Numbered from the stretch's first letter, positions 16,670-28,489 are shown. The stretch is DNA of 33,445 nucleotides from Protofrankia sp. CiT1 (GCF_917627385.1 NZ_CAKJTL010000134.1:12584-46028), one strand, 5' to 3'. The notes: generated from the sequence alone by a model not told the origin. A program made the numbers and translations.

Positions 16670-16746
16670 GTGCGGCCATCGTTCGCAACAGCCGAGTGCC
16701 CTCGCTTCAAGTCCCGGTTCCAGGCGCTGGCTGCGAGACTGAGGCC

Positions 16747-17886
16747 ATGGACGAACGGCACGCCCCCGAGACCGCGCCGGCCGGCTCCAGCCTCACCGCG
16801 CCCGGCTCCGGCCGGGACGGCAGGACACTGGCCAGCCCGGATACGAGCACCGATGCCGATCACCTGGAACGTGTTCTCTTCGAGATCAAAAAAGTGATCG
16901 TCGGTCAGGACCACATGATCGAGCGGATGCTGGTGGCGCTGCTTGCCCGCGGGCACTGCCTGCTGGAGGGTGTGCCGGGAGTGGCCAAGACCCTCGCCGT
17001 CCAGACGCTGGCGACAGTGGTCGGCGGAACGTTCGCGCGCATCCAGTTCACCAGCGACCTGGTCGTGTCCGACATCGTCGGTACCCGCGTGTACCGCCAG
17101 ACCCGGGAGACCTTCGACGTCGAGCTGGGCCCGGTCTTCGCGAACTTCATCCTCGCGGACGAGATCAACCGCGCGCCCGCGAAAGTGCAGTCGGCGCTGC
17201 TGGAGGTGATGTCCGAGCAGCAGGTCTCCCTCGGCGGTGTCACCCATCGGCTGCCCGCGCCGTTTCTGGTGCTGGCCACGCAGAACCCGATCGAGTCAGA
17301 AGGCGTGTACCCGCTTCCGGAGGCGCAGCGCGACCGGTTCCTCATGAAGATCAACGTACCGTACCCGACCGGCAGCGAGGAACTGGAGATCGTCCAGCGG
17401 ATGGGCGTGCGACCGCCCGCGGCCGAGTGCGTGCTGGACCCCCAGACGCTGCTGAAACTACAGCGGCATGCCGCCGAGGTGTTCGTCCACCACGCGATCG
17501 CCGACTACGCCGTGCGTATGGTGCTGGCGACCCGGTCACCCACCGAATTCGGGATGCCCGAACTTACCGGCCACCTGGCTTACGGCGCGTCGCCGCGCGC
17601 CTCGCTCGGTCTGGTCGCGGCGGCCCGCGCGCTGGCGCTGCTGCGCGGACGGGACTACGTGGTGCCCGACGACGTCGCCGCGGTGGCCCTCGACATCCTG
17701 CCGCACCGGCTGGTGCTCTCCTACGAGGCGCTGGCGGAAGGGCTGTCCACGGACGCCATCGCCGAGCGCGTTCTCCAGGCCACCCCACCGCCACAGGTCG
17801 CGCCACGCCAGCACGGCTACTCCGGGCGCTGGACCACGAACCCGCACGGCTTTCCCGAGTACCACAACCAGGGGACAACCGCGTGA
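16747..17886 (+). CDS. MoxR-family AAA+ ATPase
   Basis: 379-residue AAA+ ATPase. Walker A reads G-V-P-G-V-A-K-T (residues 75-82) and Walker B F-I-L-A-D-E-I-N-R (about 134-142). The sensor-1 segment is A-T-Q-N-P-I-E-S-E-G and is followed by Y-P-L-P-E-A-Q-R-D-R-F, the MoxR hallmark. MoxR proteins act as chaperone-like remodellers with a VWA partner, often for envelope stress or enzyme maturation. The gene overlaps the following DUF58 gene by 4 bp (GTGA), and that gene overlaps the VWA gene by 4 bp, so the three should be translated together. The ATG at 16747 has a poorly spaced GAGG; a GTG at 16696 would add 17 unconserved residues. Confidence 0.93.
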   Translation: MDERHAPETAPAGSSLTAPGSGRDGRTLASPDTSTDADHLERVLFEIKKVIVGQDHMIERMLVALLARGHCLLEGVPGVAKTLAVQTLATVVGGTFARIQFTSDLVVSDIVGTRVYRQTRETFDVELGPVFANFILADEINRAPAKVQSALLEVMSEQQVSLGGVTHRLPAPFLVLATQNPIESEGVYPLPEAQRDRFLMKINVPYPTGSEELEIVQRMGVRPPAAECVLDPQTLLKLQRHAAEVFVHHAIADYAVRMVLATRSPTEFGMPELTGHLAYGASPRASLGLVAAARALALLRGRDYVVPDDVAAVALDILPHRLVLSYEALAEGLSTDAIAERVLQATPPPQVAPRQHGYSGRWTTNPHGFPEYHNQGTTA

Positions 17887-18938
17887 GCGCCCACCGCTCC
17901 TCCGCTGGGGCCCACCGCTCCTCCGCTGGGGCCTACGGCTCCTCCCCCGCATCGGGAACGGGTGGCCCGCTCGCCGCGGATCCGTCGATCGAACGCGCCC
18001 TGCGTCGGCTGGAACTGACCGTCACCCGGCGCCTGGACGGGCTGCTACTCGGTGATTACCTGGGCCTGGTACCCGGATCCGGAACCGAAAAAGCCGAAAG
18101 CCGCACCTACCACGTCGGCGACGACGTCCGGCGGATGGACTGGGCGGTCACCGCCCGTACCACCGTCCCGCACGTACACGACCTCATCGCCGACCGCGAG
18201 CTGGAGACCTGGGTACTCGTCGACCTCACCGCCAGCCTGGAGTTCGGCACCGCGGCCTGGGAAAAACGCGACCTCGCGATCGCCGCTGTCGCCGCGGTCG
18301 GCTACCTGACCGCACGCGGCGGCAACCGGCTGGGAGCGTATGTGCTCTCCGGTACCGGCCCGCGCGTACTACCCGCCCGTACCGGTCGCAACAGCCTGCG
18401 AGCACTGCTACGGACCTTGCTGGCAACACCGCGTACCGCGCTGGACCGCCCGGCCAGCGCGCCGGACGTCTCCGCGGCGACCGATCTGGCAGCGGCCGTG
18501 AACGGACTGCGTAATCCGCCCCGGCGCCGCGGCCTGACTGTCGTGATCTCGGACTTCCTGTCGACGGACATGTCGTGGGAACGGCCACTGCGTGCGCTCG
18601 CCGGACGCCATCAGGTACTTGCCGTCGAGATAGTCGATCCGCGCGAGCTTGAGCTCCCGCGGGTCGGGCTGCTCACCGTCATGGACCCGGAGACCGGCGC
18701 GACGCTGGAGGTACCGACCTCGTCCCGCCGGCTGCGCGAGTCCTACGCCCGCGCCGCCGCGGCGCACCGCCGCGAGACCGACGCCGCGCTTCGCCGGGCC
18801 GGCGCCGCCCACCTCGTCCTGCGGACCGACACCGACTGGCTCGCCGACATCGTCCGCTTCGTCCTGGCCACCCGCCGCAGCCGCGGCGCGGGCCGGCGTC
18901 CGCCGGTCACGGCCCGGCCGGCCGGGCCGGCACGATGA
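17883..18938 (+). CDS. DUF58 domain protein (MoxR operon)
   Basis: 351-residue cytoplasmic DUF58 protein. The core contains G-L-V-P-G-S-G and the D-D-V-R-R-M-D-W block that defines DUF58. W-V-L-V-D-L-T-A-S-L then begins a degenerate VWA-like part, with V-V-I-S-D-F-L later. DUF58 proteins are regular partners of MoxR and VWA proteins and probably bridge the ATPase to its target. The first 20 residues are an insertion of two perfect seven-residue repeats (A-H-R-S-S-A-G) plus a diverged third, encoded by a 21-bp tandem repeat directly after the start codon. The start overlaps the MoxR stop (GTGA) and the stop overlaps the VWA start (ATGA). Confidence 0.9.
   Translation: MSAHRSSAGAHRSSAGAYGSSPASGTGGPLAADPSIERALRRLELTVTRRLDGLLLGDYLGLVPGSGTEKAESRTYHVGDDVRRMDWAVTARTTVPHVHDLIADRELETWVLVDLTASLEFGTAAWEKRDLAIAAVAAVGYLTARGGNRLGAYVLSGTGPRVLPARTGRNSLRALLRTLLATPRTALDRPASAPDVSAATDLAAAVNGLRNPPRRRGLTVVISDFLSTDMSWERPLRALAGRHQVLAVEIVDPRELELPRVGLLTVMDPETGATLEVPTSSRRLRESYARAAAAHRRETDAALRRAGAAHLVLRTDTDWLADIVRFVLATRRSRGAGRRPPVTARPAGPAR
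17889..17951. repeat. 21-bp tandem repeat in the DUF58 gene start
   Basis: Units 17889-17909 and 17910-17930 are identical (GCCCACCGCTCCTCCGCTGG plus G), and 17931-17951 is a diverged third. The array begins 6 bp after the GTG start codon, so copy-number change would lengthen or shorten the N-terminus in frame. Confidence 0.92.
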
Positions 18939-19894
18939 CCTTCCTCGCCGGCCACTGGCTGTGGCTGCTGCTGCTGGTCAGCGCGCTGGCTGTCGCCTAC
19001 ATCGTGCTGGCGCTGCGCCGGAAGGTCTACGCGGTCCGGTTCGCCAGCGCCGGGCTGCTCGCGTCGGTGCTGCCCAGGCGCCCGCAGTGGTGGCGCCGGC
19101 ATGTGCCGGCCACCGTCCTGTTGCTCACGCTGGCCACCATGGTGTTGGCCCTCGCGCGGCCGGCGAGGGCGGATCGGGTGCCCCGCGAACGCGCGACGAT
19201 CATGCTGGCGATCGACGTCTCGAATTCGATGGCAGCGACGGATATCCCTCCCAACCGGCTCGAGTCGGCCAAACAGGGCGCCGAGGCGTTCGTCAATCAA
19301 CTACCACCGCGGATCAACCTCGGCCTGGTGTCGTTCGCCGGCTCGGCTGCGGTTCTCGTTCCGCCGACCACGGACCGCGAAACGGTCCGTTCCAGCATTC
19401 ACAGCCTGCAGTTGGGTCCGTCCACCGCGATTGGCGAGGGTATCTTCGCCAGCCTGCAGGCCATCACCGTGCTGGGGGATCAGGTCATCGCGGACGGCCA
19501 GACGCCACCACCGGCGGCTATCGTTCTGCTCTCCGACGGGGAGACCCAGCGGGGACGCCCGAATTCCGAGGCCAGTCAGGCCGCTGTAAGCGTCCGGGTG
19601 CCGGTGGACACGATTGCCTACGGCACCCCGAACGGTACCCTCGACGTCGGCGGCCAACAGCTCCCCGTCCCGGTCAACGAGGCGGCATTGCGCGAGATCG
19701 CACGGACGACCGGGGGCTCCTACCACCGGGCCACGTCCGGCGACGAACTGCGGTCGGTGTATGAAAGGCTGGGCAGTTCCATCGGATACCGTACCGAGTT
19801 CCATGAAATTACCATGTGGTTTGTGGGGCTGTCGCTGTGTCTCGGCCTGACCGCCACGGCACTGTCGCTGGCCTTCTCGTCCCGAATCCCCTGA
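18935..19894 (+). CDS. VWA domain membrane protein (BatA-like)
   Basis: 319-residue protein with two N-terminal membrane helices (about 6-26 and 58-76), a von Willebrand A domain and one C-terminal membrane helix (about 292-312). The metal-ion-dependent adhesion site is intact: D94-V-S96-N-S98, with a following T-A-I-G-E-G and L-L-S-D-G-E. This is the BatA/BatB layout, facing the extracytoplasmic side or forming a membrane platform for MoxR. It is translationally coupled to the DUF58 gene. The TGA stop (19892-19894) is within the first bases of a half-copy of the palindromic repeat. Confidence 0.93.
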   Translation: MTFLAGHWLWLLLLVSALAVAYIVLALRRKVYAVRFASAGLLASVLPRRPQWWRRHVPATVLLLTLATMVLALARPARADRVPRERATIMLAIDVSNSMAATDIPPNRLESAKQGAEAFVNQLPPRINLGLVSFAGSAAVLVPPTTDRETVRSSIHSLQLGPSTAIGEGIFASLQAITVLGDQVIADGQTPPPAAIVLLSDGETQRGRPNSEASQAAVSVRVPVDTIAYGTPNGTLDVGGQQLPVPVNEAALREIARTTGGSYHRATSGDELRSVYERLGSSIGYRTEFHEITMWFVGLSLCLGLTATALSLAFSSRIP

Positions 19895-19985: not shown

Positions 19986-20957
19986 GTGCGTGCGTGTGAG
20001 CTGACCGCCGCGGGGATCACCGCGCCCGAGCTGCGGCGCTCCTACCTGGCATGCCGCCAGCTCAACGCCGCCCATGGCCGCACATACTTTCTGGCGACCC
20101 TGTTACTGCCCATCTGGAAACGGCCATACGTCCACGCGCTCTACGGATTCGCGCGGTATGCCGACGAGATCGTTGATGATCTTGACTCCATGCTCCCCGA
20201 CGCCGAACGGGCGGTCTGGCTGCGCGGCTGGGGTGAGGAGTTCCTGGCTTACGCACGGTCATGCCCGGCCACGACCGCCACGACTGGCATGACTGGCATG
20301 ACCGGCACGACGTCCGTGCTACCGGCGGTTGTCGACACGATCCGGCGCTGGAACATCCCGCTTGAGCACTTCGAGGCCTTCCTGCGATCCATGGCGATGG
20401 ACCTCACGACGACCTCCTACCCGGCCTGGGACGATCTGATGGTCTACGTCCACGGCTCGGCCGTGGCGATCGGCCTGCAGATGGTGCACGTCCTGGAAGC
20501 CAACGGCGCCGCGGCCCTGCCCTACGCCCGCGATCTGGGTACCGCCTTCCAGCTCGCGAACTTCATCCGGGACGTCGGCGAGGACCTGCGCCGCGGCCGG
20601 ATCTACCTCCCTCAGGAGTCGCTGGACCTGTTCGGTGTGACGCCCGAGCGCCTCGGCACAGGCGTGGTGGATGGCCCGGTCCGCCGGCTGCTCGCGTTCG
20701 AGATCAGCCGTGCCCGGGAACTGTTCCGCGCGGCAAAGCCCGGCATCCGGCTGCTGCACCCGACATCACGCGACTGCGTCCACACCGCCTTCCAGCTTTA
20801 CCAGGGCATTCTGGATGAAGTGGAACGCGCCGACTACCAGGTCCTGGACAAGCGGGTGGCCGTCGGGCTCGGCCGGCGGGTCGCTGTCGCCGGCCCCGGC
20901 CTCGTCCGCGCCGCCCGCGTCCGCCGCGCCACCCGCGTAACCCCGCCTGCGATTTAA
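19986..20957 (+). CDS. crtB: Phytoene synthase CrtB
   Basis: 323-residue squalene/phytoene synthase that condenses two GGPP to phytoene. Both Mg-diphosphate motifs are present: A-D-E-I-V-D-D (about 59-65) and N-F-I-R-D-V-G-E-D (about 191-199), the latter followed by R-G-R-I-Y-L-P. H-G-R-T-Y-F-L-A-T and H-A-L-Y-G-F-A-R-Y are typical CrtB. Residues about 96-110 (T-T-A, T-T-G, M-T-G, M-T-G, T-T-S) come from an in-frame 9-bp tandem repeat, a low-complexity loop unlike the rest. The GTG start gives M-R-A-C-E-L-T-A-A-G-I-T, matching the usual N-terminus; its Shine-Dalgarno lies inside repeat R2. No crtE is adjacent, so GGPP must come from elsewhere. Confidence 0.95.
   Translation: MRACELTAAGITAPELRRSYLACRQLNAAHGRTYFLATLLLPIWKRPYVHALYGFARYADEIVDDLDSMLPDAERAVWLRGWGEEFLAYARSCPATTATTGMTGMTGTTSVLPAVVDTIRRWNIPLEHFEAFLRSMAMDLTTTSYPAWDDLMVYVHGSAVAIGLQMVHVLEANGAAALPYARDLGTAFQLANFIRDVGEDLRRGRIYLPQESLDLFGVTPERLGTGVVDGPVRRLLAFEISRARELFRAAKPGIRLLHPTSRDCVHTAFQLYQGILDEVERADYQVLDKRVAVGLGRRVAVAGPGLVRAARVRRATRVTPPAI
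20271..20315. repeat. 9-bp tandem repeat within crtB
   Basis: Five in-frame 9-bp units (ACGACCGCC, ACGACTGGC, ATGACTGGC, ATGACCGGC, ACGACGTCC) encode a Thr/Met/Gly-rich loop of CrtB between conserved helices. The middle units are near-identical; the outer two are diverged. Confidence 0.85.
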
Positions 20958-20963
20958 TGATTA

Positions 20964-21146
20964 CGAGTGCCCGGCAACAGGGGAATGGATCAAGGAAGGG
21001 AGCTGGGGTGCGGGAGTCGCCCTACGTTGGGCGTCGACCGGCAAGCCGGGGTACCCGCGCGTCGCGCGGCAATGGCTGGGCAGCGATGGCGCGATGCGCC
21101 GCCCAGGCGCCGCGAGCCGGACAGTCCTGTTGCCGGGCGCTCTAAC
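20964..21146. repeat. MITE-like palindromic repeat, complete copy (R3)
   Basis: About 180 bp between CGAGTGCCCGGCAACAGG (20964-20981) and the complement of 21126-21146, GTTAGAGCGCCCGGCAACAGG. The ends are near-perfect inverted repeats. Inside are smaller hairpins such as CCGGCAAGCCGG and GGCGCGATGCGCC. It fills the gap between crtB and the convergent large membrane protein gene. The stop codon of that gene (TAG, 21144-21142) is part of the right end. The interior end sequence GCACCCCAGCTCCC...CCTTGATCCA (reverse strand) matches copy R1. Confidence 0.75.
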
Positions 21147-23832
21147 TCGAGCAGGGACGCGGCCTCAGCGGCGGCTCGTCAGGATATGTGAGACCAGAGC
21201 GATACACCTCATATGGAACGTCATTATTCGTCTGAAATACCCGCTTAAGGTCCGCGGCACACATGATTGAAATGTGCCGAGTGCGGGCAATCCCATTCTG
21301 GTCGAATGCAAGAATGCCACTGACCCCTTCATACTGATGAAGGTCGACAGACTGGCGAATCTGACTGTACACCATTTTCGGATTGATTTGCGCCGGATCC
21401 CACGAGTGATCAATACCAACGGCGGGCCGACGGCTTGCGATATCGGTGACTGAACGCAACAAGAGGCGGGCCGCATCGTAGCCGAGGCTAACCCATTCCT
21501 GGATTGGCTTGCTTCCATCACAGAAGCCCAGCGCGTCACGGATATCATTGAGAAAGTTTATGCGTTCAGGCTGATGGGCATTTTTTAGCTGCTCACAGAA
21601 GCCGAGTTGCCCACGGGATATATAAGCCACCGGAAGCGTGGTCGGAGCAACAGCCCGCATTTCTGAATTAGCGATGTAACGACTCACCGATCCGTCGGCC
21701 AACAGGGTCGGGAGCCTACCGCCGCAGTCGGTGTAAACCCGGGAAACAAATGCGGGAAATTCGGTGTATCGGCCACCAAAGAAGACTATTCCGTCGAACT
21801 TGTCAGAACAGATGTCACTGACATCTGTTCCGCTGGGCCAGAATTTTTCTCTGTAATGATCTACAAACTCGGCATGTAGATCATTACGAAGAGTGTTGAC
21901 ATACAGGTCTTCGTCGCCACCGATGCGCCCCTTGGCGCCATAGGTGTAGAAGTTGATGATCGCATCGCGATGCAGCACCTGGCTGACATAGGAATGGATC
22001 ATACCTACCTCATCCCTGTTGGACGGCGAGAGCTGCAGGTAGAGATTGGACGCGCCGGCGATGCCATCGGCCGAGGTGGTCAGCGTGAGAGTCGGCAGCC
22101 CGACCGCGTCAAGCGACTGGAGCATGTCCTGGGTTTTTGTCCGGCTATCCAGCTGAGCTACTGTCGCGATCACTGTCGGGTCGTCATGTACCAGCTGGGC
22201 CAGCATCGGTACAAGTTTGTCAGCATGGCGTGTTTCGTCGCCGACGTTACCCACAATCACTCGTAGATATGGACTGGCCGGATTGTTATCGGCCTCATGC
22301 ATAGCTCGGTACTGAGCTGCCGCTACACCTTCCAATCCTTCCCGCTCAGCATCAAAGACTTCGTCACCGAGACGGGAGTCAGTCCTGGTGAACGCGGCAA
22401 GATAGACCAGTGTCACCAACGGCCGGTTACGCTTGACCTGGTGGGCACTGGCAGCTTCCCGATTTTGCGCGAAAATTTTCTTCTGTACGCCTGTCAATCG
22501 TTCATCTGGTCCAAAGGCCTGTCGATCGGAGCCACTGTAACCGATGCACTGCCGATCGATATAAATAACCCGCAGCGTATCGCCACGATGAAGAGGAAGC
22601 GTCGCGCATCCAGGGTGTATCTGACCTACTATCCAAATCACGAAAGTGCTTATGAGTAAGAGTACAACCACGGCTGGCATCCAGGGCTGAGCCAGCCACG
22701 GCGGACGCGCCGGGATGACTACCGGTAACCTGTCCTTGATGTTCAGATTATTGATACCAGATACCGCTACCGGCAACAGCCACGTATCGGGATGCCCTCG
22801 TTTGCCCGCCATGGGCAGCCGGTCATGAACAGTCGAATACGCGGCATCCAGGCCCATCAACGGCACTACTCTGCCGTCGGTGACGGCCTCAGCAAGTGGC
22901 GTCCCGTTCAGCGGCACATCCACCCCCCTTGTAACGATCAGCAGGGGGTCGGTCCACCCGTCACCGCGCACAGCGGTAACCGCTCGTATGAGTGCGTATC
23001 CGGCGTTGTCGGGCGCTACGGCGTCCAGCAGTATCACCGGGTACGCCGTACGCCGCCACGGTCGTAGCCGCCACGGTCGACGCCGATACTGCACCCGCAG
23101 ATCTTCCAGAAACGCGTCCGTCAGGAGCCGATCGATGGCTTCGGGTTCCTCATCGGCGCGTGGACCGATAGTCAACCGCTCGGCGACCGCCAGGAAAGTC
23201 GAGGCTGGCCCAGACGCGAGGTACTGCTGCCTCCTGAACCAGCGGAACTCATGCCCTGCCCCGGGAAGTCGTCCGCTGACGAGGAGCCGCAGCGCCACCA
23301 CCGGCAACGCCCTGACAAACAGCGACAGCAGCAGCCCCAACCAGCCGGTAAAACCGTGGTCTAATCCGCCCTCACCCTGGCCTCCCCGCAGCCCGAACTC
23401 CCGGCGCAGCCGTCTGGCCAGCTCCCGTTGCCGCTTGGCGACCGGCACGTTGGACAGGTTCTGCGCGGTCAGCCAGTCGACCAGCGTGAAGCAGCGAAAG
23501 CGCAGCGGGTCACGGCTGAAACGACCTACCGCCAACTTTTCATGTAACTGGTGGAGTAGCGGCTGCAGCCCACTGACCTGTGTGACGTCGACGTACGTAT
23601 GCGGCACACGTCGCTTGCCCGACTCGACAAACCGCCCGGCAAGTACCTTCAACGCCGAGTCCGCCGTGCCCGCATCCACCAAACACAGCACCGGTATCCG
23701 CCAGTCAGTACGGCCAAACCGGTTGGCATGCCGCGAGCGCGTCACTATGGACTTGACAAGCTGCACCAAGATCGTAAATCCGGCGAAAACCGCCATTATC
23801 GTACTGGATTCCTGCTCGTCAGTACTGCTCAC
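21142..23832 (-). CDS. Large membrane protein with C-terminal periplasmic-binding-protein-like domain
   Basis: 896-residue protein from the GTG at 23832 (GGGGGGAG 5 nt upstream). Visible parts, numbered from that start, are: a hydrophobic N-terminal segment (about 13-28); a cytoplasmic-looking region with two candidate membrane stretches near 163-185; a clear membrane helix (about 384-404); then about 490 residues that read like a type 1 periplasmic binding fold, as in LIV-binding proteins. Examples are V-T-L-V-Y-L-A-A-F, Y-L-R-V-I-V-G-N-V-G-D and T-V-I-A-T-V-A-Q-L-D. The first part has V-L-C-L-V-D-A-G-T-A-D-S-A-L where a P-loop might be, then V-I-L-L-D-A and L-L-I-V-T-R-G, the order seen in STAND-type NTPases, but without a Walker A lysine. 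I infer a membrane sensor. Base composition is visibly more A/T-rich than its neighbours. Current databases probably label such proteins as ABC substrate-binding proteins, but no transporter genes are nearby. Confidence 0.75.
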   Translation of the reverse strand: MSSTDEQESSTIMAVFAGFTILVQLVKSIVTRSRHANRFGRTDWRIPVLCLVDAGTADSALKVLAGRFVESGKRRVPHTYVDVTQVSGLQPLLHQLHEKLAVGRFSRDPLRFRCFTLVDWLTAQNLSNVPVAKRQRELARRLRREFGLRGGQGEGGLDHGFTGWLGLLLSLFVRALPVVALRLLVSGRLPGAGHEFRWFRRQQYLASGPASTFLAVAERLTIGPRADEEPEAIDRLLTDAFLEDLRVQYRRRPWRLRPWRRTAYPVILLDAVAPDNAGYALIRAVTAVRGDGWTDPLLIVTRGVDVPLNGTPLAEAVTDGRVVPLMGLDAAYSTVHDRLPMAGKRGHPDTWLLPVAVSGINNLNIKDRLPVVIPARPPWLAQPWMPAVVVLLLISTFVIWIVGQIHPGCATLPLHRGDTLRVIYIDRQCIGYSGSDRQAFGPDERLTGVQKKIFAQNREAASAHQVKRNRPLVTLVYLAAFTRTDSRLGDEVFDAEREGLEGVAAAQYRAMHEADNNPASPYLRVIVGNVGDETRHADKLVPMLAQLVHDDPTVIATVAQLDSRTKTQDMLQSLDAVGLPTLTLTTSADGIAGASNLYLQLSPSNRDEVGMIHSYVSQVLHRDAIINFYTYGAKGRIGGDEDLYVNTLRNDLHAEFVDHYREKFWPSGTDVSDICSDKFDGIVFFGGRYTEFPAFVSRVYTDCGGRLPTLLADGSVSRYIANSEMRAVAPTTLPVAYISRGQLGFCEQLKNAHQPERINFLNDIRDALGFCDGSKPIQEWVSLGYDAARLLLRSVTDIASRRPAVGIDHSWDPAQINPKMVYSQIRQSVDLHQYEGVSGILAFDQNGIARTRHISIMCAADLKRVFQTNNDVPYEVYRSGLTYPDEPPLRPRPCSS

Positions 23833-24624
23833 TTTGCTCCCCCCGCTGGTCTCGGCATCCGTGGACCCGACAATCAATCGCGCCCTCAATCATGCCCCAG
23901 ATATAAGCTGCCTGGTTGCTACCGGCCTTCATTCAAGGCACTGACAGGACGTGGTCAATGTGCCCTGTGACCCTGCGGGCTACCAGAAACCGGCCTGGCC
24001 CTGTGAACTGGGTGACATGCCAGCGCGGCTGCCCGCACGACGATCAGCCACTGACCGGCAGGCTAACGAAGGACCGCGCCCAAGACCCCGTCCGCCTGCA
24101 TCGGACGAGAACCACCAGCGTCAGTCACCCCGACGAAAAACTCGGCGTCGCCCGAACGCGACAGCACCTGTTGAGTCATCCCATCCCCCGATCGCGGACC
24201 ACACCAGAACCATCACTGTCAGTGATTTAACCATAGCCCGGCGAGCCCGACATCAGAGACACCGCCGCTCGGGCACCCTCTCCGCCGGAACCCCTTGGGT
24301 CGGAGGAGAGGGTCCGGCAGGGCCCCGGTGGTACGCGGTCAAAGTGCGGCCGTGGAAGGTTCGAGACGGCCGTCCCAGCGGAGCGAAGCAGATCGTGCCG
24401 CGATCCCGGCCAGCACCAGCCGCGCGGCGTTCGCGGTAAAAGACCCTGAAGGTAGATGGACGAGCGAGTTGTCGACCACGACAGCGCATCCAGGCTAAGA
24501 TTGGTGGTGTTGGGCGGTGTCCGGTTCGCGCCCGATGCAGGATCACTCTTCAGTTAGGCATCCAGCCCCTCTGAAACCGGGAAACAGGCGGGGGTTCGGG
24601 ACTGGTGCCGGGCTGGAGTGTCCT
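23833..24624. other. Long structured intergenic region
   Basis: About 790 bp between two divergent genes with no reading frame that looks coding. It holds a 15-bp palindrome ATCACTGTCAGTGAT (24212-24226) and a strong nested stem-loop (24275-24313). It could carry divergent promoters or a non-coding RNA, but I cannot place -35/-10 boxes with confidence. Confidence 0.45.
24275..24313. other. Strong nested stem-loop, possible terminator or RNA element
   Basis: The outer arms ACCCTCTCC (24275-24283) and GGAGAGGGT (24305-24313) pair perfectly over 9 bp. Inside them CCG pairs with CGG, and ACCC with GGGT around a CTT loop, with only small bulges between. No T-run follows on either strand and no gene ends just before it, so a standalone RNA or a regulatory structure is as likely as a terminator. 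Confidence 0.45.
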
Positions 24625-24981
24625 GTGGCGCCAGAGGTGCTCATCCCCCTCGTGTCGGGTTCGATCTCGACAGTCCTTGGCTCAATCGCCATAATGATCA
24701 TGTACCTCTCCAGGCAGCGGACCGAACGGATCAAACACTCTCAATTAATTGATCTTGAACGAGAACGTCTTTGGCTCACCTTGGCTGCCTTCGAGCGCGG
24801 CACGACCGCTGGACAATCTGCAGATCTTGTTGGCCTGACGCTAGCGCTCCGTGGTGGGGACGACTCAGCCCGAAACAGCCCGGACGACATCGATAGCAGC
24901 GGATCAAGGCCGTCGATGCTGGGCAGTCAATCTCCATCAGGCGTTCCTTCCTCTCCTCCCGCCTGCGCCGGCCGCAGGTAG
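24625..24981 (+). CDS. Small single-pass membrane protein of unknown function
   Basis: 118 residues from a GTG with GGAG 7 nt upstream. Residues about 4-27 form a clear membrane helix (I-P-L-V-S-G-S-I-S-T-V-L-G-S-I-A-I-M-I-M-Y). A charged helical segment follows (S-R-Q-R-T-E-R-I-K-H-S, then L-E-R-E-R-L-W-L-T-L-A-A-F-E-R), and the tail is Ser/Pro-rich and disordered-looking. No family is recognised. It is divergent from the large membrane protein gene and shares the A/T-richer composition in its first half, so the two may belong to one acquired unit. A longer open frame upstream to 24517 lacks coding character. Confidence 0.5.
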   Translation: MAPEVLIPLVSGSISTVLGSIAIMIMYLSRQRTERIKHSQLIDLERERLWLTLAAFERGTTAGQSADLVGLTLALRGGDDSARNSPDDIDSSGSRPSMLGSQSPSGVPSSPPACAGRR

Positions 24982-27834: not shown

Positions 27835-27884
27835 CGCGGGCCTTGGGTGGTGGCCGGCCGAGACCCGGCCGCCACCCATCGATG

Positions 27885-27920
27885 CGGTAGGCACAGGGGT
27901 AGCACAATGGGTAGCATCAA
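27885..27920. promoter_or_regulatory. Three direct 12-bp repeats at the mazE start, candidate operator
   Basis: CGGTAGGCACAG, GGGTAGCACAAT and GGGTAGCATCAA follow each other without gaps. Ribbon-helix-helix antitoxins commonly bind tandem direct repeats near their own start codon, so this could be the autoregulatory site of the mazEF pair. The array covers the first ATG (27907). Confidence 0.45.
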
Positions 27921-28155
27921 AAGTATGAAGATCAGCGTTAGTCTGCCGGACGACGATGTGCGCTTCATCGACGAGTTCAGTGCCGCAAGCAGCATCCCGT
28001 CACGCTCCGCGGTAATCCACCAGGCTGTTGGCCTGCTGCGGGCGGCCAGCATCGAAACCGCCTACACCGCGGCCTGGGACGAGTGGGCCGCCACCAGTGA
28101 CGCCGGGCTCTGGGATGCCACCACGGCGGACGAACTCGCCGATGCGTCGCGGTGA
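27907..28155 (+). CDS. mazE: MazE-type ribbon-helix-helix antitoxin
   Basis: 82-residue protein that begins, after six residues, with M-K-I-S-V-S-L-P-D-D-D-V, the typical beta strand of a ribbon-helix-helix DNA-binding domain; S-R-S-A-V-I-H-Q-A-V is the second helix. The C-terminal half (W-D-E-W-A...D-A-T-T-A-D-E-L) is acidic, as expected for the toxin-neutralising part. It overlaps the toxin gene by 14 bp, the usual arrangement. The ATG at 27907 has AGGGG 7 nt upstream; the ATG at 27925 would start exactly at M-K-I-S but has no ribosome binding site. The symbol is used in the broad sense; mycobacterial MazE-like antitoxins look similar. Confidence 0.85.
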   Translation: MGSIKSMKISVSLPDDDVRFIDEFSAASSIPSRSAVIHQAVGLLRAASIETAYTAAWDEWAATSDAGLWDATTADELADASR

Positions 28156-28489
28156 CATCTACTGGGTCAGCCTGGAACCAGCCCGGGGAGCAGAAGCGAA
28201 CAAGACCCGCCCCGCGGTGATCGTGAGTAATGACGCCGCCAACCGCGCGGCCGGGCGTGCCGGGCGCGGTGTGGTCACCGTCGTACCCATCACGTCCAGC
28301 ACCGATCGGGTGTTCCCGTTCCAGGTCCTGCTCAAAGCCGCTGAGTGCGGGCTCGCGGTCGATTCAAAAGCTCAGGCCGAGCAGGTGCGAGCCGTGGCCG
28401 CGGACCGGCTCGGCAACCGGATCGCAGAGGTCCCGCCCGCGACGATGGCCGCGCTGGACAACGCCTTGCGGCTGCACCTCGCGCTCTGA
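28142..28489 (+). CDS. mazF: MazF-type endoribonuclease toxin
   Basis: 115-residue PemK/MazF toxin. R-R-G-D-I-Y-W-V-S-L starts the fold, and N-K-T-R-P-A-V-I-V-S-N carries the catalytic Arg region. V-V-T-V-V-P-I-T-S-S-T is the conserved Thr/Ser strand, and A-E-Q-V-R-A-V is the late family block. MazF cleaves single-stranded RNA at short specific sequences, unless bound by MazE. Cleavage specificity is not readable here. The ATG lies inside the antitoxin gene. A 12-bp perfect palindrome, AGGCGATCGCCT, directly overlaps the stop (28489-28500). The pair sits at the end of the glycosyltransferase operon, and its gene order is the common antitoxin-first one. Confidence 0.95.
   Translation: MRRGDIYWVSLEPARGAEANKTRPAVIVSNDAANRAAGRAGRGVVTVVPITSSTDRVFPFQVLLKAAECGLAVDSKAQAEQVRAVAADRLGNRIAEVPPATMAALDNALRLHLAL

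Follow-up and report, generated by a model that had tools for sequence, protein, structure and literature searches.

A putative Protofrankia membrane receptor joining a degenerate STAND NTPase domain to an extracytoplasmic Venus-flytrap domain

The window, i.e. the whole stretch of 33,445 nucleotides of Protofrankia sp. CiT1 DNA that was analysed, carries a long gene on the minus strand whose protein, when used alone, found no match in Pfam, NCBIfam and PDB sequence searches; matches were obtained only with family profiles. What this protein is, and whether it belongs with the small ORF that diverges from it, is the question raised by the locus. The initial annotation had proposed an 896-residue membrane sensor, unlike an ABC transporter in layout, with a STAND-like cytoplasmic region lacking the Walker A lysine, membrane helices and a LIV-binding-protein-like extracytoplasmic domain, which together with the small divergent gene might form a signalling or defence receptor. 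The features considered here are as follows.

21142..23832, minus strand: degenerate-STAND/TM/Venus-flytrap receptor, likely 896 aa from GTG 23832 (open frame, GGGGGGAG, Umezawaea homologue)
22675..23793, minus strand: predicted N-terminal degenerate STAND NTPase domain, residues 33-405 of the 915-codon frame (hmmsearch, hhalign)
23641..23697, minus strand: eroded P-loop slot IPVLCLVDAGTADSALKVL, where intact relatives have LPVVVAVGPPGSGKTVLL; no Gly-Lys-Thr (hhalign alignment)
23278..23334, minus strand: hydrophobic segment within the N-terminal domain, residues 186-204 (hydropathy scan)
22999..23046, minus strand: Walker-B-like strand AYPVILLDAVAPDNAG opposite NSILLLDNAHSPSG, first Asp kept and second position changed (alignment)
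22618..22674, minus strand: predicted transmembrane helix, residues 406-424, directly before the flytrap (hydropathy scan)
21151..22617, minus strand: predicted extracytoplasmic type I periplasmic-binding/Venus-flytrap domain (AlphaFold2, Foldseek, family profile)
24517..24981, plus strand: small orphan ORF with one hydrophobic helix; probable start nearer GTG 24625 (open frame)

The minus-strand frame at 21142-23889 runs open for 915 codons, and translation probably begins at the GTG at 23832, which gives 896 residues and has GGGGGGAG upstream at Shine-Dalgarno distance. A full-length relative with about 40 % identity was found in Umezawaea tangerina, which shows the 896-residue gene of the initial annotation to be conserved rather than a fortuitous open frame. 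Its GC content is 0.58 compared with about 0.69 in the neighbouring genes (third codon position 0.65 and 0.84, respectively), which fits either later arrival or relaxed selection.

The C-terminal half was modelled by AlphaFold2 with good core confidence (pTM 0.75), and Foldseek grouped the model with LivK/LivJ and with the ligand-binding domains of class C receptors, the best hit being LivK 3td9 (E=7.7e-13). The receptor's single sequence had no Pfam match on its own; the profile of the flytrap family matched LivJ 4gnr (E=6.3e-11). On this model and these profiles, the C-terminal half is assigned to the type I periplasmic-binding (LIV-binding type) fold and sequence family, as had been proposed. 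The membrane helices that had been noted are also borne out, with a strong predicted TM helix at residues 406-424 and the hydrophobic segment at residues 186-204, in whose place some relatives have two helices. The TM helix adjoins the flytrap in the relatives scanned for hydropathy (the fused protein of locus L094 was judged by eye).

Three more relatives are encoded in the Protofrankia sp. CiT1 genome, with the C-terminal half common to all: a near-twin in architecture, which runs off contig C128, a TIR-domain protein (L026) and a Ser/Thr kinase protein (L027). The full architecture of the receptor was found in Umezawaea tangerina, Parafrankia colletiae, Candidatus Frankia californiensis, a Frankia CiP1 genome and Protofrankia coriariae; the genus-mates of the window genome stand among these Frankia/Protofrankia records. 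Within the class, matches to the N-terminal domain were present in at least 33 of 394 genomes and matches to the flytrap domain in at least 76, and a phylum-wide draw gave matches in at least six of 296 genomes, all six from the same class as the receptor's host; these counts are lower bounds, obtained from the best few candidates per genome.

Some relatives encode the two halves in separate genes. Among 25 such standalone TM-flytrap genes from related Actinomycetes, 21 have a STAND NTPase gene directly 5' on the same strand; these partner genes are 640-775 codons long and either overlap the TM-flytrap gene or lie up to 89 bases from it. The partner family, present in 26 loci, matched the Pfam families AAA_16 (14 of 17 members), AAA_22 (12 of 17) and novel STAND 5 (nSTAND5, 5 of 17), and its Walker B reads LLDN; a GGHP-type GxP motif is present in most members. 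GxxxxGK[ST] lies at the expected place in 14 of the 21 partner NTPases, the other seven having variants such as GxxGxGR, GKG and GAS, in which the Walker A lysine or the serine/threonine is lost. The NTPase is thus eroded in these seven split pairs too, and its activity may be of little importance more generally. The co-occurring partner of the flytrap in relatives is a STAND NTPase gene, which in the receptor is fused to it. Consecutive frames overlap by 150-173 bases in three units (L141:4141-9070, L092:4314-7972 and L097:4850-8633), where the downstream gene probably starts later than its frame does.

The N-terminal half of the receptor is, by sequence, a homologue of these partners. The receptor protein alone matched a profile of the intact partners, built without the fused members, at E=1.1e-11 (hmmsearch, database size 1000), the best of 200 shuffles of the protein reaching E 0.25 in the same search. 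The profile of the degenerate domain matched the intact partner family with Prob 99.6 and E=2.3e-24 over 303 columns (hhalign), and 20 column-shuffled controls gave E 0.24 or more. Because these matches far exceed the shuffled controls, the half is assigned by sequence to the STAND NTPases as a homologue without a P-loop, in agreement with the STAND-like region without a Walker A lysine that had been suggested. GxxxxGK[ST] is absent from the receptor protein and from all 35 of the degenerate fusions examined, and the loop at the P-loop site differs in length and residues between relatives. At the Walker B position (hhhhD[DN]) the receptor has VILLDA, in which the first Asp is retained and the second position is Ala. 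The GxP motif of the helical segment that follows the STAND core is also absent, the receptor's domain stopping at the TM helix. The AlphaFold2 model of this half had a pLDDT of 55 and Foldseek returned no significant match to solved folds; it is the sequence profiles that point to a P-loop-like fold. The domain (370 residues) and the TM helix are conserved across relatives. The fused protein of L094 keeps a Walker A (GPGGSGKT), and fusion and erosion of the P-loop are therefore separate steps.

The same flytrap family is fused to a range of other modules, namely Ser/Thr kinase, TIR, TIR+kinase, TIR+NB-ARC, EAD1 and DUF4062. A phylogenetic tree of 101 flytrap domains, 13 of them without a module label, comprised 47 rows with degenerate STAND (in three sequence clusters), 22 with a separate STAND gene, six with DUF4062, five with EAD1, two each with TIR, TIR+kinase and kinase, and one each with TIR+NB-ARC and intact fused STAND; some labels were taken over from a tested protein in the same BLAST cluster, for instance EAD1 in L142/L143 and the labels of several proteins in two of the degenerate-STAND clusters. 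The receptor's flytrap pairs with that of Umezawaea (96 % SH-aLRT), within a clade of 27 that mixes degenerate STAND, kinase, TIR, TIR+NB-ARC and EAD1. Module labels change 22 times on the tree, compared with a least possible number of 11 and an average of 64.5 for shuffled labels; this number of changes, with the mixing of labels, indicates that the sensor has been kept whilst the output was swapped repeatedly. Chances are about even that the Actinomycetes harbour a widespread, unnamed class of TM receptors in which one flytrap lineage is combined with exchangeable immune-type outputs (live STAND in gene pairs; pseudo-STAND, TIR, kinase, TIR-kinase, NB-ARC, EAD1 and DUF4062 as fusions) and fusion accompanies NTPase loss.

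Within the flytrap family, TIR, Ser/Thr kinase, TM helix and flytrap are joined in single proteins at L161:4168-7101 and L163:3040-6534, an unusual two-enzyme receptor. EAD1 is fused to a TM-flytrap in the receptor's bacterial family at L140:3520-5952 and L141:4141-6645 (EAD1 Pfam-tested in both) and at L141:6473-9070, the two flytrap genes of L141 lying in tandem with overlapping frames. DUF4062 (PF13271, tested in L180) is the cytoplasmic module in L180, L182, L186, L187, L195 and L172, and in several of these loci an MFS transporter gene is conserved beside the DUF4062-flytrap receptor.

In the window, genes for a MoxR ATPase (bpMoxR-like match), DUF58 and vWA/BatA stand in a row at 16696-19894, with a squalene/phytoene synthase gene next to them at 19986-20957. 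The MoxR-DUF58-vWA set lies on the opposite strand to the receptor, beyond (5' of) the phytoene synthase gene, and a link between the receptor and this upstream MoxR-vWA operon was rejected, the relatives being without that operon. Apart from the receptor, no window ORF found a convincing counterpart in the loci of the relatives. The phytoene synthase gene is shared by one genome alone, in which the contig ends about 0.7 kb downstream. On the other side of the receptor, at 27847-28489, a ribbon-helix-helix antitoxin-like ORF precedes a PemK/MazF-type toxin gene (PF02452, E=2e-27), forming a type II toxin-antitoxin pair.

Taken together, the gene probably encodes a single-chain membrane receptor with a flytrap outside, one TM helix and a pseudo-STAND domain inside, which would have arisen from a fused and eroded STAND + TM-flytrap pair and would now act as a platform. 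The ancestor would have comprised a STAND NTPase gene followed by a TM-flytrap sensor gene; the pair would have fused, and the STAND protein would have lost its C-terminal part as well as nucleotide binding. In the present protein, a small extracellular ligand would close the flytrap and the movement would be relayed to the inside through the TM helix. Having lost its ATP switch, the pseudo-NTPase domain may form a membrane-held platform for dimerisation or for docking of cytoplasmic partners, in the slot where sister proteins have their output, be it a live STAND NTPase, a kinase, a TIR domain or an EAD1 adaptor. What we infer is the sequence in which the evolutionary steps occurred, the amino-acid-like type of ligand, the direction of the signal and the platform role. 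A signalling receptor is well supported, and this part of the initial annotation is upheld; the defence role that it also suggested is possible, given the association with TIR, EAD1 and STAND modules.

Defence takes a more definite form in the reading that the receptor belongs to a conflict system, anti-phage or other, of the iSTAND or effector-associated-domain type, which senses an invader or damage and triggers a toxic response via other proteins. It is favoured by the sensor's association with TIR, EAD1, NB-ARC and STAND modules, by the PBP reported behind TM helices in the EACC1-caspase system (system 4 of PMC7159879) and by the inactive STAND modules that are core parts of such systems. 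Against it, no PADLOC model matched the receptor protein, no EACC1, caspase or effector gene adjoins the receptor gene, and the receptor itself has no caspase match. Furthermore, in the 19 loci of family f17 (e.g. L165, L147 and L096) the fused receptors occupy a fixed position beside genes for pyridoxamine oxidase, citrate synthase, a DtxR-like protein and SpoIIE. Defence islands are expected to turn over, whereas this shared neighbourhood suggests long-term vertical inheritance and, being a conserved housekeeping one, points to a resident signalling role in that family. We regard the conflict-system reading as rather unlikely. An altered P-loop that still binds nucleotide, so that the N-terminal domain works as a slow switch, would be in keeping with the retained beta-1 strand and first Walker B aspartate; it is improbable given the lack of GxxxxGK[ST] in the degenerate fusions and the variability of the loop described above.

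The resemblance of the flytrap half to LivJ/LivK could also mean that the protein serves an ABC transporter as an orphan substrate-binding protein with an unusual N-terminal anchor. This is very unlikely, as a 370-residue STAND-homologous domain and the TM helix are conserved across relatives, kinases and TIR domains occur as fusions to this sensor, and the window ORFs scanned gave no match to a permease or transporter ATPase, a result that also favours the original view of a layout unlike that of an ABC transporter. Finally, the large and small genes could be a dedicated two-component pair, a view that draws on their divergent arrangement and on the hydrophobic helix and charged helix of the small ORF. 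No homologue of the small ORF was detected among 57 related genomes or in 1.5 Mb of fetched loci, those of the receptor's relatives included, and a match in G051 was due to chance, its frame being unsupported. Nor did the small ORF match Pfam, even at E=10, or EACC1, which was considered as a candidate (EACC1, PF19953, sits on two other contigs of the same genome). Its codon-position composition is mildly coding-like at best, and it may be a real orphan gene. The small gene is thus not conserved beside homologues of the receptor, an outcome that the initial annotation had named as refuting, and the idea of a conserved divergent partner is hardly tenable and, by these sequence comparisons, largely refuted. 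The preferred reading remains that of a single-chain receptor with a pseudo-STAND domain.

Proteins of the STAND/NLR type usually do their sensing inside the cell. In this family their NTPase lineage is linked, in a gene pair or a fusion, to an extracellular ligand-binding domain of the amino-acid-receptor type, which also serves as the sensor for TIR and kinase outputs. The receptor family offers a route, open to testing, by which small molecules outside the cell could act on bacterial NLR-like machinery; if the proposal is true, it would be a bacterial counterpart of the cell-surface receptors that feed NLR-like machinery, and would provide a natural series from an NLR-like active switch to a pseudo-enzyme. 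STAND domains, inactive STAND modules and a PBP behind TM helices in an EACC1-caspase system (PMC7159879) are already described. The open-access literature held no description of the STAND + TM-flytrap pair, of the fused pseudo-STAND form or of a shared sensor with exchangeable outputs, nor, as far as we found, a name for the flytrap receptor family with exchangeable outputs.

The nearest described architecture is system 4 of PMC7159879, which consists of EACC1 and a caspase with variable C-terminal domains, TM-PBP among them. It shares with the receptor a PBP behind TM helices, joined to a cytoplasmic signalling domain; the receptor differs in having no EACC1 5' of a caspase/cyclase gene and no caspase. 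iSTAND and iSTAND2, components of MoxR-vWA ternary conflict systems in multicellular bacteria (PMC7159879, PMC8195603), are likewise catalytically eroded STAND modules in signalling proteins, whereas the receptor has a TM + flytrap fusion, no bDLD/EAD fusion and no Pfam match, and does not lie in a conserved operon with MoxR and vWA, the set in the window being on the other strand. Along its length, the N-terminal half of the receptor shows homology to intact STAND-like family members (NB-ARC/NACHT/AAA_16-type), but it lacks Walker A, has an altered Walker B, has lost the GxP-containing C-terminal part and forms part of a membrane receptor. The C-terminal half shares fold and sequence family with type I periplasmic-binding/ANF-receptor (class C GPCR type) domains and differs in being tethered C-terminally behind a pseudo-NTPase, outside any transporter. 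Receptor Ser/Thr kinases with extracellular sensors are also comparable, since sister flytrap proteins have a Pkinase domain in the cytoplasmic slot; in the receptor described here, a pseudo-STAND domain replaces the kinase.
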